Shown: piece by piece, positions 55,508 to 61,884 of the stretch
Numbering within the stretch: position 1 is the stretch's first letter
Layout of the letters: each line of letters starts with the position of its first letter
Origin: Algoriphagus marincola HL-49
GTDB taxonomy: Bacteria > Bacteroidota > Bacteroidia > Cytophagales > Cyclobacteriaceae
NCBI GenBank assembly: GCA_001314815.1
Contig: LJXT01000005.1
Location: forward strand, 1 to 64,000
DNA: 64,000 nt
Reading direction: 5' to 3'
The notes under the pieces: model-generated
What the model saw: only the letters and a program-made list of their open reading frames with translations
Told to the model about the DNA's origin: nothing
Database searches by the model: none
Translations under genes and position numbers: made by a program

Positions 55508-55541
55508 TTTGGGAAAGTTAAGGGAGTTCCGTGTATTTTTG
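55508..55541 (+). promoter_or_regulatory. Bacteroidota promoter (TTTG-N22-TATTTTTG) for the RluA-family gene
   Basis: TTTG 55508-55511 and TATTTTTG 55534-55541, directly before the ATG at 55546. Confidence 0.5.
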
Positions 55542-55545
55542 CAGG

Positions 55546-56583
55546 ATGAATCAGCAACCCGAGGAGGAATTTGAGGACGAGGAAGTAGTATCTCTTTATG
55601 AGCACTATCATATCAAGGTCGACAAAGGACAGTCTCCGATCCGTATTGACAAATTTCTTACCGAGAAAGTGGCTTTCGCTACGCGCAATAAAGTGCAGCA
55701 GGCCATAGACAATAGCTTTGTGCTTGTCAATGGCCAATCTACCAAAGCAAATTACAAGATTAAGCCACTGGATGAGATCCGAGTCATGTTTCCACAAGAA
55801 CCACGGGATACCGAGGTAATTCCTGAAAACATTCCCTTGGATATCGTCTACGAAGATATGGATTTGCTGGTAGTCAATAAACCTGCCGGAATGGTAGTTC
55901 ATCCAGCACATGGCAACTGGACGGGTACCCTAGTGAATGGGCTGGTTTATCATTTTCAGCAACTTCCCGAGATGAAAGGGAATGTGGGCCGCCCCGGATT
56001 GGTACATCGAATCGATAAGGACACCTCTGGCCTTCTGGTGATCGCCAAGAAAGAAGAGGCCATGACACAGCTTGCGGCGCAGTTTTATCACCATACTATC
56101 GAGCGAAAATACATAGCCTTGGTCTGGGGCGAGATGGAAGAGAAGTCCGGGACCATCACCGGACATGTAGGACGAAGTGCCAAAGACCGGAAAATAATGG
56201 ACGTCTTTCCGGATGGAAGCCAAGGGAAACATGCGGTAACCCACTGGGAAGTGATCAATAATTTACGCTATGTCAGTTTGATTTCCTGCCAACTGGAGAC
56301 TGGAAGGACCCACCAGATCCGAGCTCACATGAAATATCTGGGACACCCCCTATTCAGCGATGGGATGTATGGCGGAGATAAAATCCGGAAAGGGACACAG
56401 TTTTCTAAGTATAAGTCTTTTGTAGAGAATTGCTTTCAAATCATGCCGAGGCAAGCCCTTCATGCCAAGTCTTTAGGTTTTAAGCATCCCCGTACTGGAG
56501 AGAAAATGTATTTCGAAGCACCACTTCCGGAAGATTTTTCGGCTGTATTAGCTAAGTGGGAGCATTATGTGCAGTATGAATAA
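55546..56583 (+). CDS. RluA family pseudouridine synthase
   Basis: RPGLVHRIDKDTSGLLVIAKKEEAM; TGRTHQIRAHMKYLGHPLFSDGMYGG. Confidence 0.95.
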   Translation: MNQQPEEEFEDEEVVSLYEHYHIKVDKGQSPIRIDKFLTEKVAFATRNKVQQAIDNSFVLVNGQSTKANYKIKPLDEIRVMFPQEPRDTEVIPENIPLDIVYEDMDLLVVNKPAGMVVHPAHGNWTGTLVNGLVYHFQQLPEMKGNVGRPGLVHRIDKDTSGLLVIAKKEEAMTQLAAQFYHHTIERKYIALVWGEMEEKSGTITGHVGRSAKDRKIMDVFPDGSQGKHAVTHWEVINNLRYVSLISCQLETGRTHQIRAHMKYLGHPLFSDGMYGGDKIRKGTQFSKYKSFVENCFQIMPRQALHAKSLGFKHPRTGEKMYFEAPLPEDFSAVLAKWEHYVQYE

Positions 56584-56783: not shown

Positions 56784-56791
56784 TATATTTG
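56784..56791 (+). promoter_or_regulatory. -7 box (TATATTTG) upstream of tRNA-like copy 1
   Basis: Exact TAnnTTTG match approx. 36 nt before the acceptor stem; the -33 box is weak (TTTTC). Confidence 0.45.
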
Positions 56792-56826: not shown

Positions 56827-56949
56827 TGTAGGATGTTGAAATTGGCAGACAAGCCCTCCTGTCTCGGGGGTGGGGATGAAAGGACAAAGCATTTATCGAG
56901 CTCGTGAATGCCTAACTTCCCCGTGGAGGTTCGAATCCTTCTCCTACAG
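56827..56949 (+). ncRNA. tRNA-like RNA copy 1: class-II-like, GUC anticodon loop, 54-nt variable region
   Basis: Acceptor TGTAGGA/TCCTACA plus C56826-G56949; D arm TTG-AAATTGGCAGA-CAA; anticodon arm CCCTC-CTGTCTC-GGGGG; V-arm GGGGA...TCCCC; T arm GGAGG-TTCGAAT-CCTTC; G73. Confidence 0.85.
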
Positions 56950-56980
56950 CAGGTTATTTTGGGTTTATTGTTAATTGATT

Positions 56981-57014
56981 AAAACCATGAAATTGTTTTT
57001 CATGGTTTTTTTTT
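56981..57014 (+). terminator. Rho-independent terminator of tRNA-like copy 1
   Basis: AAAACCATGAAA ... TTTTTCATGGTTTTTTTTT. Confidence 0.8.
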
Positions 57015-57178
57015 GCTCCTAGGTTTCAGGTTTTTTAGTTGGATTGAAGATTTGTTAATGAAGCTTTGATTTTAAGATGTTTCATTTTATAAAAAATATC
57101 AAAAAGACATATTTATTAAAAATAATGTAAAAAATTAGAAAAAAATTTGCAAAAAGGGTAATAAAAGGATCATTTTGT

Positions 57179-57186
57179 TAATTTTG
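57179..57186 (+). promoter_or_regulatory. -7 box (TAATTTTG) upstream of the copy-2 leader
   Basis: TAnnTTTG match; the nearest TTTG (57146-57149) is at non-canonical spacing. Confidence 0.35.
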
Positions 57187-57192
57187 AATCAT

Positions 57193-57343
57193 CAAGAGTT
57201 AGAAATTGAGCTATCGCAAAACGATGCGATTCATACTTGAAAAGCGGCGCGTAAGCAATGGAGACAGACGACTTTTTCGACTGTAAGTTATTCGCCGCTT
57301 CTTTTCTGAATTTAAACGACCCAAGGTCTCTAAGAAATAATCC
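57193..57343 (+). ncRNA. putative structured leader RNA upstream of tRNA-like copy 2
   Basis: Hairpin ATCGC..GCGAT; long stem AAGCGGCG (57242-57249)/CGCCGCTT (57293-57300) enclosing ACAG-A-CGA-CTTTT-TCG-A-CTGT; no terminator before copy 2. Confidence 0.5.
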
Positions 57344-57466
57344 TGTAGGATGTTGAAATTGGCAGACAAGCCCTCCTGTCTCGGGGGTGGAGGTAAAGGA
57401 AAAAGCATGGCTCAAACCGGACTATCGCCTAACTGCTCCGTGGAGGTTCGAATCCTTCTCCTACAG
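57344..57466 (+). ncRNA. tRNA-like RNA copy 2: class-II-like, GUC anticodon loop, 54-nt variable region
   Basis: D, anticodon, T and acceptor arms identical to copy 1; V-arm GGAG...CTCC; same 123-nt length; C57343-G57466 extends the acceptor. Confidence 0.85.
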
Positions 57467-57469
57467 CTA

Positions 57470-57496
57470 AAAGCAGCAAGAAATTGCTGCTTTTTT
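57470..57496 (+). terminator. Rho-independent terminator of tRNA-like copy 2
   Basis: AAAGCAGCAAGAAATTGCTGCTTTTTT begins 3 nt after the tRNA-like 3' end. Confidence 0.85.
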
Positions 57497-57540
57497 ATTT
57501 TTTAGAGCAGATTTAGTTATTTTTCACAAAATACCTCAGC

Positions 57541-60500
57541 ATGATCAAAGGAATCCGTGATAAACTCAGCCATCATCCCCGGCGCAAGCGGGTTTTGAGG
57601 GTTTTGATCTATTTGCTGCTCAGTCTTCTCTTTTTGGAGTTCTTTTTTTATTTCGGTTCCAACCTTCTGTTGCTCAATTGGGCGAGGACTAAAGTCAATG
57701 AAGCAACGGGCGGAGTCTATCAGGTAGAGTTTAATCGTTTGAATTTTTCACTGTTTCGTCGTGGCGTATTCCTAAATGGTATCGTCCTTCGTCCGGATCC
57801 CAATGCAGCTGCTAATCAAAATCAGGTTTTGTTTAATTTTCAATTGGATGAATTGGGAATTCAAAACCTCTGGTTTGACTGGGATCAGAAAATCCTCGAA
57901 GTAGGAAACATCAGGCTTGAGAATCCGGATCTTTCACTTCAACTTCCTCCCGATTTGGAAGAAAGCGATTCTCTGTACCAAGAGGAAGTGTCAGCAGTGC
58001 GCCGACTTGAAAATGAAATCAAAAAGAGTATCGATCAGTTGATCATTGGGGGGGTGATTATCGATGAAATCTTGATAACGGACGCAGACTTGTTCTTTTT
58101 TAACTTTCTTAGTAAAAAATCCATCAATGCCAAGAATACGCGGCTGCATATTTTTGATGTGAATTGGAGCGAATCGGGTGACTGGGACACCCCTTTCAAT
58201 GCCAAAGGCTTTGAGTTTGAGCTGGAAAAAGTGGAGTTCTCCTTGCCGGATAAGGTTCATACCATAGTTGCCGAAAAAGCATTTGTCACCTCGTTGGACA
58301 GTCGCATTTCGGTTGAAGAATTTTCCCTCAAGTCTGACAAAACTGTTGATGCGCCTGTTTATTATGAGCTTTTTTTGGATGAGTTGCGGATAGGGAATGT
58401 GGATTTAAATCGTGCATTTAGACAATCAGAGCTGGAAGTTGATGAGGTCATTCTAAATAAGCCCTCAGTGCAGGTGATCCGAAATGAGAATCTTACAAAA
58501 AGTGTCCAAAGGAGTGGTGACCTGAATGAATTGATCGAAGGCTTACTTAAGTCTATCTACATCAAAGAACTATCTGTCCGAGAGGGTGATTTTTTGACAG
58601 GGGGGCTTCTGGATAGTCTCCACAATCGGATAGAGGCTGGAAAAGTGGAGTTCAAAATGGTTGAGTTCTACCTGGGAGAGGATCAGAGTAGGAGGCAGAA
58701 TCAGTTTTTTTATGGAAAAGATGCTGCCATGGAACTTGGAGAGTTTGTGCTATACCTGTCGGATGATTATCACCTAATTCGAGGCGAAAAAGTCCTGGCC
58801 AGTTCCTTTTTGGAAAGAATCGAGGTGGAGGGATTTGAGCTGGTGGAAAGGCCGGAAATAAACCCTGAAATAGTTCCCAATCAGCGGTTTGATATCAAGC
58901 TTGAGACCGTGGAGATGGAGGCGGCTGAATTGAAAAAGCTCTATAACGAAGGGATATTGGATGTGGATAGGATTACCTTGCAAGCACCCGAAGTTGAAAT
59001 CACTGATCTGCGAAGAGCTACCTCAGTGGAAGTCGAAAAAGCGAGGAAGAATATATGGGAAGGCTATTTGACAGAAGCAAATATTGGGGTTTTTGATTTG
59101 ATTGATGGTCGGGTCCAATTCAAGAATGCAACAGGCTTACGCTCGGATGATGTAGCCTTTGAGCGGATCAGTTTGAGTTTGGAAGATGTCAAAGTGTCAT
59201 TAGATTCCGTGTTTGAAATTCAAGATGCCCTTCTAGCTGAAGAAGTGGTATTGAGTTTGGATAAGTATAGGCTCAAGCTTCGGGATAACCTTCACGTTTT
59301 TGAAGCGGGAGAGGTGATTGTCGATTCCAAACGTGATTTGATTGAGCTGAGAGACTTTACTTTAAGGCCTGAAAATCCCCAGAATATTTCTGGTGTTTTA
59401 GATGCCTACGGTAAAAGTGTAGTGCTGAATTTCAAGGTCCCCAGCTTTCAGGTGAGAGGAGTTGATATCAGGGCAGCCCTGCTTGAAGAGAGATTGGATA
59501 TTAGTGAGATTTTTGTCCTTGGCTCTGAGTTTGAATATAGAAAATATCGTAAAACCTCCGAATCTTCCAGGGGAGACGGGCCAAACTCCGTGGATGATTT
59601 TCAAGACCTTCTTTCTTCTTATTTCCGTTCAGTTTCCATCGATTCGGTCCGTTTTCAGGAGGGAAAACTCAATTTTTTTGATTTTTCCGGAAGGAGAGAA
59701 ATTAGTTTTTCCGAAGAGGATCTGTCTCTTTATTTGAAGAATTTTTACTTCGAAGAAGGAATGGTGAATGATACTTCCAAGACTTTCTTTTCGGATGAAA
59801 TTATTCTTGATCTGGCAGATTACTCCTTCAGTCTAGCCCAGGGTGACTATGATGTGAAGACTAATCACCTTCAGTTTGATACCAAGAAAAAGCGTTTGTC
59901 AATTGATACTCTTACACTCATTCCCGGACAGAATCTTTCCAGTAAAATTGCCTTGTCCCTGCAGCTGCCGATGGTGGAGTTGGATGGGGTGGATTTGGAG
60001 GATTTTTTATTCAATGATCAGTTGAACCTCCATCGTCTGAAGGTGAATGAAAGCTCGATTAATTTGGAGGTGAATCCGGATTATATTCGTAATGAAGGCC
60101 GGGAGGCTAGGAGAAATCAAAGGAGAAGTGAAAGGAGGGTCCTCAAGGAGGTAAGCATAGATGAAGTAATTGCGACTAATTCTAATTTTAACCTGCTCTA
60201 CCGCTATGGACAACGAGGGGAACAATCCATCAATACTGATTTTGACCTTTCTATTCAGGATCTGAACTTGGGTGAAGAAGTGGATTTGAGGCTTGATGCT
60301 TCACAACTCTTCGGGCAGTTGGCCATTTCTCTCAATAAGTTTCAATTCAATCTTCCGGATAGCATTCATCAGCTGGTATTTTCCAATCTCATTTTTGATA
60401 GTAAAAAAGATGAGACGGTTTTGTCTGGGATCACGATTTCTCCCATCGATCGCTCGAATAAAACGCCCTTTTTTCTGGAAGGTAGTATCGCTGAAATTGG

Positions 60501-61884
60501 TATTTCAAATAATGACTTGAGTCTTATTCAAGAAACTGGAGTGTTTGATATCGAAAAGCTCCGAATCTCCCGGCCGAAGCTGCGTGTCATCCGAGACAAA
60601 GAAGCACCTCGAATCAATAAAGTATCCCAATCAAATAATGCTGATTCGGTAGGTCTGATTCAGAAAATTCTCCTTCAATCAATAGAAATACAAGAAGGAC
60701 AGATAAAAATTGAAGATCTTTACAAGGGTGCGATCAATGGGCTAGGTTTTAATAAGGTCAACGCACAAATCAATGCACTTAATTGGGATCTGACTCAAAT
60801 GAGGGATGTAAAGATCCTCGAATCACTTTTAGAGGGGGATTCTTTTCTTTCCTTTGGAGATTATGAGATTTTCAGCAAAGATAGTATGGAGTCGGTGCGG
60901 GTGGATAAAGTGATCATCGATAGCGGGTCCTTTGAGCTGGAAAAAGCTCGCTATGCTCCGACGATGGGTCGGTACGAGTATTTGCGGAAAAAGGGGTTTC
61001 AGACCGATGCCTTGGATCTGACAATCGAGAACTTAAAAGTCGATGGGATCGATTACCCAGCCTATTTTGAAAAGGGTCTGATTAAAGCCAGAAAGTTTCG
61101 GGGAGACGAGTTTCGATTGGATGTTTTCAGAGACAAACGAATTCCCATGGCAGAGAATAATTACAAACCCATGCCTCAAGTTTTGCTGAGCCAAGCCCCT
61201 TTTTCTGTTCTTTTGGATACCGTTGTGTTGGAAAATGGTCGAATTCGTTATCAGGAATTTACCCAGGGTTCTCAACTTCCAGGGCAGATTGTCTTTGAGG
61301 GTGTAGCTGCAGGAATCGCACCGGCAGCTACCAGTACAGAGGGTTCATCCTATCCTTTAAAGGAGTTGGATTTGATTGCAACCGCTAAGTTGATGGGAGA
61401 GGGGGAGATCAATCTCCAAAGCCGTCTGTTTTTCGAAGATCCTTATCCTATGGATGTAACGCTGCAGCTTGGAGCCATGCCTTTGGAAAAATTAAATGGG
61501 ATATTGGCCAAAGCAGCATTTTTAAATACTCGTAAAGACGCCCGTGTGGTCATGGGGGATTGGAGTTTTCGGCTAGATGATGAGGAAGCTATCGGGAAAA
61601 TGCGTTTTCACTATGAGGATTTGAAAATTGATTTTCTTGACTCTCTGACTTTGGAAAAAGGAAAAGGCAAACTTGCCTTTATGAGTTTTCTAGGGAATAC
61701 TTTGATCAAAAATAATAATCCGCGAAAACTTTTTGGGAATACGGTTCTATCTGATATTTACTTCAAAAGAGACACATCTAAATTTATATTTAGTTCATGG
61801 TGGAAAGCAACACTAAGTGGTCTCAAGGGTTCGGTGGGACTAGGACAGCCAGCTATTCCGGTCCGGAAAGAAGAGGAGGAGTAA
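57541..61884 (+). CDS. very large AsmA-like/DUF748-type membrane-anchored protein
   Basis: 1447 aa; N-terminal TM (LRVLIYLLLSLLFLEFFFYFGSNLLLLNWARTKVNEATGGVYQVEFNRLNFSLFRRGVFLNGIVLRP); repeated beta-rich segments. Confidence 0.7.
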   Translation: MIKGIRDKLSHHPRRKRVLRVLIYLLLSLLFLEFFFYFGSNLLLLNWARTKVNEATGGVYQVEFNRLNFSLFRRGVFLNGIVLRPDPNAAANQNQVLFNFQLDELGIQNLWFDWDQKILEVGNIRLENPDLSLQLPPDLEESDSLYQEEVSAVRRLENEIKKSIDQLIIGGVIIDEILITDADLFFFNFLSKKSINAKNTRLHIFDVNWSESGDWDTPFNAKGFEFELEKVEFSLPDKVHTIVAEKAFVTSLDSRISVEEFSLKSDKTVDAPVYYELFLDELRIGNVDLNRAFRQSELEVDEVILNKPSVQVIRNENLTKSVQRSGDLNELIEGLLKSIYIKELSVREGDFLTGGLLDSLHNRIEAGKVEFKMVEFYLGEDQSRRQNQFFYGKDAAMELGEFVLYLSDDYHLIRGEKVLASSFLERIEVEGFELVERPEINPEIVPNQRFDIKLETVEMEAAELKKLYNEGILDVDRITLQAPEVEITDLRRATSVEVEKARKNIWEGYLTEANIGVFDLIDGRVQFKNATGLRSDDVAFERISLSLEDVKVSLDSVFEIQDALLAEEVVLSLDKYRLKLRDNLHVFEAGEVIVDSKRDLIELRDFTLRPENPQNISGVLDAYGKSVVLNFKVPSFQVRGVDIRAALLEERLDISEIFVLGSEFEYRKYRKTSESSRGDGPNSVDDFQDLLSSYFRSVSIDSVRFQEGKLNFFDFSGRREISFSEEDLSLYLKNFYFEEGMVNDTSKTFFSDEIILDLADYSFSLAQGDYDVKTNHLQFDTKKKRLSIDTLTLIPGQNLSSKIALSLQLPMVELDGVDLEDFLFNDQLNLHRLKVNESSINLEVNPDYIRNEGREARRNQRRSERRVLKEVSIDEVIATNSNFNLLYRYGQRGEQSINTDFDLSIQDLNLGEEVDLRLDASQLFGQLAISLNKFQFNLPDSIHQLVFSNLIFDSKKDETVLSGITISPIDRSNKTPFFLEGSIAEIGISNNDLSLIQETGVFDIEKLRISRPKLRVIRDKEAPRINKVSQSNNADSVGLIQKILLQSIEIQEGQIKIEDLYKGAINGLGFNKVNAQINALNWDLTQMRDVKILESLLEGDSFLSFGDYEIFSKDSMESVRVDKVIIDSGSFELEKARYAPTMGRYEYLRKKGFQTDALDLTIENLKVDGIDYPAYFEKGLIKARKFRGDEFRLDVFRDKRIPMAENNYKPMPQVLLSQAPFSVLLDTVVLENGRIRYQEFTQGSQLPGQIVFEGVAAGIAPAATSTEGSSYPLKELDLIATAKLMGEGEINLQSRLFFEDPYPMDVTLQLGAMPLEKLNGILAKAAFLNTRKDARVVMGDWSFRLDDEEAIGKMRFHYEDLKIDFLDSLTLEKGKGKLAFMSFLGNTLIKNNNPRKLFGNTVLSDIYFKRDTSKFIFSSWWKATLSGLKGSVGLGQPAIPVRKEEEE

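Follow-up and report, generated by a model that had tools for sequence, protein, structure and literature searches.

The window, that is, the whole stretch of 64,000 nt of Algoriphagus marincola HL-49 DNA that was analysed, contains two tRNA-like RNA genes located between two protein-coding genes (Table 1). The upstream gene, for an RluD-type pseudouridine synthase, is considered a neighbour without a part in the system. Direct reading of both copies confirmed an earlier sequence-only reading, i.e. that two 123-nt elements have a complete tRNA core with the arms as claimed: both have U8, A14, A15, G18G19, A21, U48, TTCGAAT and G53-C61, and a 122-nt body followed by G73 and then C74. The copies are 86% identical, and both have a 54-nt variable region from position 44 through 48, as proposed. 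Moreover, the terminator claimed after each copy is present, and a TAnnTTTG box lies upstream of both, although the box of copy 2 is farther off than that of copy 1. The 3' tail of copy 1 (56951-56983, AGGTTATTTTGGGTTTATTGTTAATTG) is near-identical genus-wide, beyond what is expected of a spacer, and a GGTTTAT motif recurs in the element tails of another family.

Table 1. Features of the locus in the window.
Feature	Position	Strand	Remarks
RluD-type pseudouridine synthase gene (upstream)	55531..56583	+	PF00849 and S4
TATATTTG, Bacteroidota-type -7 box 5' of copy 1	56784..56791	+
tRNA-like RNA copy 1	56827..56950	+	body 56827-56948, discriminator G73 56949, C74 56950; the 123 nt are 56827-56949
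Anticodon-position loop CUGUCUC (G34 U35 C36 C38), copy 1	56859..56865	+
Variable region of copy 1, 54 nt	56871..56924	+	V stem, second helix, GGACAAA / CUAAC internal loop, distal hairpin
Terminator-like hairpin and T run 3' of copy 1	56984..57012	+	by inspection
TAATTTTG, probable -7 box of copy 2	57179..57186	+	~158 nt upstream; by inspection
tRNA-like RNA copy 2	57344..57467	+	body 57344-57465, G73 57466, C74 57467; the 123 nt are 57344-57466
Anticodon-position loop CUGUCUC, copy 2	57376..57382	+
Variable region of copy 2, 54 nt	57388..57441	+	GGAAAAA / CUAAC motif
Terminator-like hairpin and T run 3' of copy 2	57470..57497	+	by inspection
Large AsmA-like protein gene (downstream)	57541..61884	+	AsmA-like by eye, without Pfam match; neighbour only

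ARAGORN made no tRNA call for either copy in the window, and Rfam found nothing in the window at gathering score and no credible tRNA match in a permissive scan. Similarly, both copies are absent from the 36 matches to RF00005 above gathering score in their own genome. Single-sequence folding energies were no better than those of shuffled sequences (z -0.7 and -0.1). With unremarkable folding energies and no call by ARAGORN or Rfam, the evidence has to be comparative. A known Rfam RNA was ruled out for lack of any Rfam match, in agreement with the earlier claim that the layout fits no standard RNA family, and we found no account of such an RNA in the literature searched, a search that did not reach subscription papers and most preprints. 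As judged from these comparisons, the RNA family is new and absent from Rfam.

In a DNA search, homologues were detected in 83 of 99 relatives, mostly as two copies per genome in the genus of the window, and a pattern search of named genomes detected them in Algoriphagus, Echinicola, Cyclobacterium, Pontibacter, Chryseolinea, Spirosoma and others. Elements are present in many families of the Bacteroidia as well as in one family (f131) of another Bacteroidota class. A covariance model built from 27 sequences gave two groups of scores: ordinary tRNA-Leu, 80-86 nt long, reached 55-63 bits, whereas elements scored more than roughly 65-75 bits. The 5' half of the element was detected in 82 IMG/VR viral contigs; 59 of the 80 contigs examined (L338-L417) yielded the complete acceptor pairing with G73-C74 after it, and many of the IMG/VR elements sit amid phage tRNA genes, often within tRNA arrays. 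By blastn, plasmid and annotated phage records gave no match. The sequence-only reading had named an existing Rfam family and a lack of homologues as outcomes that would speak against it, neither of which occurred. Its suggestion of a constant insert length holds for the two window copies but not for the RNA family as a whole, in which total length varies from about 106 to 195 nt and the variable arm from a few tens of nt to more than 120.

Several loci depart from the common form. The largest array seen has six tandem copies, of which the two outer differ from the four inner (L048 2031-3134, genome G093). In genome G073, a 75-nt variant lacks the variable arm (L241 2040-2114, minus strand) but retains U1-A72, G73-C74 and a CUAUCUC loop, and was called tRNA-Asp(atc) by ARAGORN. 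A divergent 185-nt element lies ~0.3 kb from an ordinary-looking tRNA-Asp(gtc) (L240 1701-2217, minus strand, genome G234) in a stretch that resembles a prophage. Finally, the D loops of L229 2125-2255 and of elements in families f55 and f59 are enlarged by T runs, in L229 by about 15 nt, suggesting that the D loop, like the variable arm, tolerates insertions.

In the alignment of 27 sequences, 96% of the cells pair compared with 50-62% when the partner strand is slid, and both sides have changed in 17 of 28 pairs compared with 8.7 in shuffles. Mutual information across 101 non-redundant sequences recovered the acceptor, D, anticodon and V stems, as well as another V-arm helix, which immediately precedes an internal loop (GANAAA/CUAA) resembling a UAA/GAN motif; the distal V-arm hairpin can be reduced to GC-GAAA-GC (L043). 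The four stems are accompanied by U8-A14, R15-Y48, G18/G19, T54-A58 and G53-C61, as in tRNA. Widespread homologues with covarying stems thus bear out the proposed selection on both copies.

Pairing of the loop to the arm had no support in the mutual information of the 101 sequences, and pairing of the anticodon loop with the GGAUAAA motif, which would form a pseudoknot, was ruled out because of the absence of covariation. Mimicry of an anti-Shine-Dalgarno sequence by the stem CCUCC was rejected, the stem being CCCAC in L034 and CCCGC in L043, as was a kissing dimer via apical palindromes (6-mers in 47% of the bacterial copies compared with 54% in shuffles). Only in the phage copies are long palindromes enriched in the apical loops of the arm (8-mers in 66% compared with 22% in shuffles). 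The leader of copy 2 in the window (57235-57310) forms a GCGGCG...CGCCGC hairpin with a loop containing GGAGACAG, the exact complement of the CUGUCUC loop; this hairpin is kept in close relatives only, and pairing of the loop with GAGACAG of this leader was rejected as confined to a close clade.

A TAnnTTTG box within 70 nt upstream was detected for 126 of 199 first copies compared with 7 of 94 later copies. Tandem copies are spaced by 25-100 nt and lack individual promoters, and A is at position -4 in 258 of 293 copies; together, the A at -4 and the close promoterless copies point to processing of the kind seen for tRNA. The ordinary tRNA genes of the window's genome end in N73-C74, mostly without CA, and the element does likewise. 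We infer that the element is transcribed and that CCA is added to it.

The bacterial aspartate identity set comprises G73, G10, G34, U35, C36 and C38 (PMC9976931), and amidation of Asp-tRNA-Asn by GatCAB needs U1-A72, whereas G1-C72 and U20a impair it (PMC9976931, PMC4206432). Among the 101 non-redundant sequences, from an extraction pattern that partly fixed some positions, including U35 and the end bases, G73, U35, C36, C38 and G2-C71 occur in 100% and G34 in 90%. Counts from 114 pattern-free covariance-model matches are therefore safer for the ends; here, U1-A72 was found in 114 of 114 and G73-C74 in 112. Position 20a is A in 101 of 101 sequences, i.e. U20a is absent. Two features argue against charging by AspRS: the determinant G10 is rare (11%), and G1-C72, a pair that assists AspRS in positioning the acceptor end, occurs in 0%, with U1-A72 in its place. 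The invariants otherwise match the AspRS and GatCAB sets, suggesting a chimera loaded by AspRS and amidated by GatCAB; read in this way, they would amount to the loop and discriminator identity for AspRS combined with the amidation signal of tRNA-Asn.

Identity sets for LeuRS, SerRS, GlnRS, AsnRS, TyrRS and TrpRS were also compared, and charging by each was rejected as the sets do not fit. The base at position 73 is G in 112 of the 114 covariance-model matches and not the A73 of tRNA-Leu. The set for tRNA-Ser and tRNA-Sec (SerRS: G73, C72, C11-G24, long arm) is contradicted by C72 in 0% and C11-G24 in 13%. The GUU anticodon for Asn codons is precluded by C36 in 100%; in this respect the element departs most from the known GatCAB pathway.

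The same 101 sequences have U33 in 76% and a purine at position 37 in 4%, in disagreement with canonical decoding, and the variable positions 33 and 37 are ones that AspRS is not reported to read. Given this lack of conservation at position 33 and the near-constant pyrimidine at 37, decoding is unlikely, and the tRNA-like RNA probably does not decode on the ribosome. With the RF00005 result added, we do not class it as a decoding tRNA. That the element is nevertheless an ordinary Asp or Leu isoacceptor that contains an intron or has an atypical variable arm would fit its complete core, the tRNA-Leu genes also picked by the covariance model and the ARAGORN call for the armless variant; however, G73 excludes a LeuRS substrate, which requires A73, a normal tRNA-Asp exists in the genome, the arm has covarying helices of its own and decoding with GUC by a GatCAB substrate would cause mistranslation. 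Together with positions 33 and 37, these observations make a decoding tRNA highly improbable.

Compared with the tRNAs of its own genome, the element has a loop one base apart from that of tRNA-Asp (CUGUCUC in the element and CUGUCAC in tRNA-Asp) and shares the U1-A72 and G73 acceptor end with tRNA-Asn. Unlike either, it merges both, lacks conserved U33, purine 37, G10 and G1-C72, and has a class II arm of 54 nt. With the class II tRNA-Leu it has in common a D arm with a 3 bp stem, U44 G45 and a long variable arm, but it differs in G73 instead of A73, U1-A72, a longer and structured variable arm, and another loop.

To score the presence of GatCAB, we searched for gatB in 80 genomes, whose choice by element and regulator status preceded the gatB search; searches for GlnRS and AsnRS marked the genomes in which translation does not need GatCAB. 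gatB was detected in 43 of 44 genomes with the element, compared with 15 of 36 without; the window's own genome has gatB (C176). Among genomes with both GlnRS and AsnRS, the corresponding numbers were 28 of 29 and 2 of 23 (p 3e-11). These counts are not from phylogenetically independent samples; however, the contrast is also seen within family f59 (14 of 14 with the element and 0 of 4 without) and within family f55 (10 of 10 and 0 of 2), which argues against simple clade confounding. The exceptions are the draft genome G443, which has the RNA without gatB, and G431, which has gatB without the RNA. One of the two element-free genomes with gatB, GlnRS and AsnRS (G109, family f33) encodes a 1120-aa GatB-AspRS fusion (L328 762-4121), possibly another route to Asp-to-Asn amidation; all genomes of f33, a lineage without the element, have the same weaker gatB score.

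Outside loci of the Algoriphagus type, the commonest neighbour of the RNA is a divergent gene of the Lrp/AsnC family (96 loci, median distance 131 bp), and most of the RNA loci checked outside Algoriphagus are divergent beside such an AsnC-like regulator gene. The Algoriphagus copies, including those of the window, are not adjacent to it; the orthologue of the window's genome is on contig C98. The best NCBIfam match of the regulator is AsnC (PRK11179) with 157 bits compared with 48 for Lrp, which is below the cut-off of 227 bits, and the regulator is classed as AsnC-like only. By hand count, ~95 of 396 genomes of the class have a close orthologue of the regulator and ~71 of these have the element, which was detected in ~4 of the 301 genomes without the orthologue. 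In the ~24 of 95 genomes with the orthologue and without the RNA, the divergent neighbour is mostly not an asparagine synthetase gene. Inspection of the divergent position in 20 genomes with the regulator and without a detected element revealed asparagine synthase B in three (L290, L293, L304) and archaeal-type asparagine synthetase A in two (L291, L303), all above curated cut-offs, giving in these five loci the divergent asparagine-making gene of an E. coli-type asnC locus. The neighbour in L292 is AsnA-like by sequence, and those in the other 14 are unrelated. Thus, the RNA takes the genomic place of an asparagine synthetase beside the regulator gene.

We also searched for asparagine synthetases of the AsnB family with TIGR01536; since TIGR01536 also matches polysaccharide amidotransferases, the matches were typed. 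In six genomes with the element, including the window's own, the one AsnB-family protein typed per genome scored 245-315 bits against an asparagine synthase B cut-off of 499, and the best match of four of the six is the XrtA/EPS amidotransferase model. By contrast, AsnB proteins from four genomes without the element scored more than 900 bits for asparagine synthase B. Among the matches listed, AsnB of canonical length was found only in genomes without the element, and an AsnB-family match above cut-off was absent from five genomes with it; most genomes with the element hold AsnB-family proteins of putative function.

The main rival to a role in asparagine synthesis is a regulatory one, in which the RNA would mimic a tRNA and signal asparagine availability through its Asp/Asn charging state, with the AsnC-like regulator, mRNAs or AspRS as the recipient, instead of being a carrier for bulk synthesis. 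The conserved divergent pairing with an amino-acid-sensing regulator, the predicted small independent transcripts with terminators and a variable arm free to diverge would all suit such a role. We consider it unlikely, as regulation alone leaves unexplained both the retention of gatB beside GlnRS and AsnRS and the position of the same regulator opposite asparagine synthetase genes in genomes that lack the RNA.

Staphylococci have non-decoding tRNAs that feed cell-wall synthesis, a precedent for the element as a carrier for another amidated or Asp/Asn-dependent product, with an unknown transferase passing Asn or Asp to a peptide, lipid or wall target. The identity and gatB evidence would support this equally; however, no transferase gene is conserved beside the loci and free asparagine is the product suggested by the exchange with asparagine synthetase; we regard this alternative as quite improbable. 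The staphylococcal non-proteinogenic tRNA-Gly resembles the element in being a tRNA whose task lies outside the ribosome, but it carries another amino acid, is without an oversized arm and feeds peptidoglycan instead of amino-acid synthesis.

Altogether, we consider it likely that the element is a chimeric non-decoding tRNA that is charged by AspRS, on which GatCAB amidates Asp to Asn and from which Asn is released, replacing an asparagine synthetase. This reading of function comes from the follow-up tests; the sequence-only reading offered none. The loop (G34 U35 C36 C38) and G73 would let aspartyl-tRNA synthetase load aspartate, and the tRNA-Asn-like U1-A72 end would let the amidotransferase GatCAB turn the bound aspartate into asparagine. 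The loss of decoding features, and perhaps also the large variable arm, would keep the RNA off the ribosome. On the ribosome, the asparagine-charged RNA would place Asn at Asp codons; kept off it, the RNA would therefore release its asparagine, which would supply AsnRS. In this way, the RNA would stand in for asparagine synthetase under the control of an AsnC-type regulator.

The element would work like tRNA-dependent asparagine synthesis, in which a non-discriminating AspRS and GatCAB act on tRNA-Asn, e.g. in Bdellovibrio (PMC4206432), but via a separate non-decoding RNA. Common to both are the loading of Asp on a U1-A72/G73 RNA, here predicted, followed by amidation by GatCAB, and the apparent absence of a canonical asparagine synthetase, here as judged by the AsnB-family screen. 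Unlike in that pathway, the carrier has an Asp-type loop, so that AspRS need not be non-discriminating, and AsnRS is still present, for which the released asparagine would be the substrate. E. coli AsnC activates the divergent asnA, and asparagine counters this (PMC8707732). As in E. coli, an AsnC-family regulator is divergent from what would be an asparagine-making function; by contrast, the divergent partner in element loci is an RNA gene and not an enzyme gene, and the regulator, although AsnC-like, is below the AsnC equivalog cut-off.

A wider reading, which we put forward as tentative and rather doubtful, is that, in much of the phylum, a biosynthetic enzyme has given way to an RNA gene, with a dedicated chimeric tRNA as the carrier for asparagine synthesis. 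The elaborate variable arm would itself enforce exclusion from the ribosome and release of free asparagine, for which RNA-promoted deacylation or a scaffold for AspRS and GatCAB are possible means, and the phage copies would serve to raise host asparagine.

If the proposed mechanism is correct, a widespread RNA family that ARAGORN and Rfam miss in the window would be a tRNA that serves metabolism and not decoding. Its combination of an Asp loop with an Asn cargo would be dangerous in decoding, making the way in which it is excluded from the ribosome directly testable. Moreover, it would explain why many Bacteroidota retain GatCAB despite having GlnRS and AsnRS, and how asparagine is supplied in genomes without a canonical asparagine synthetase.
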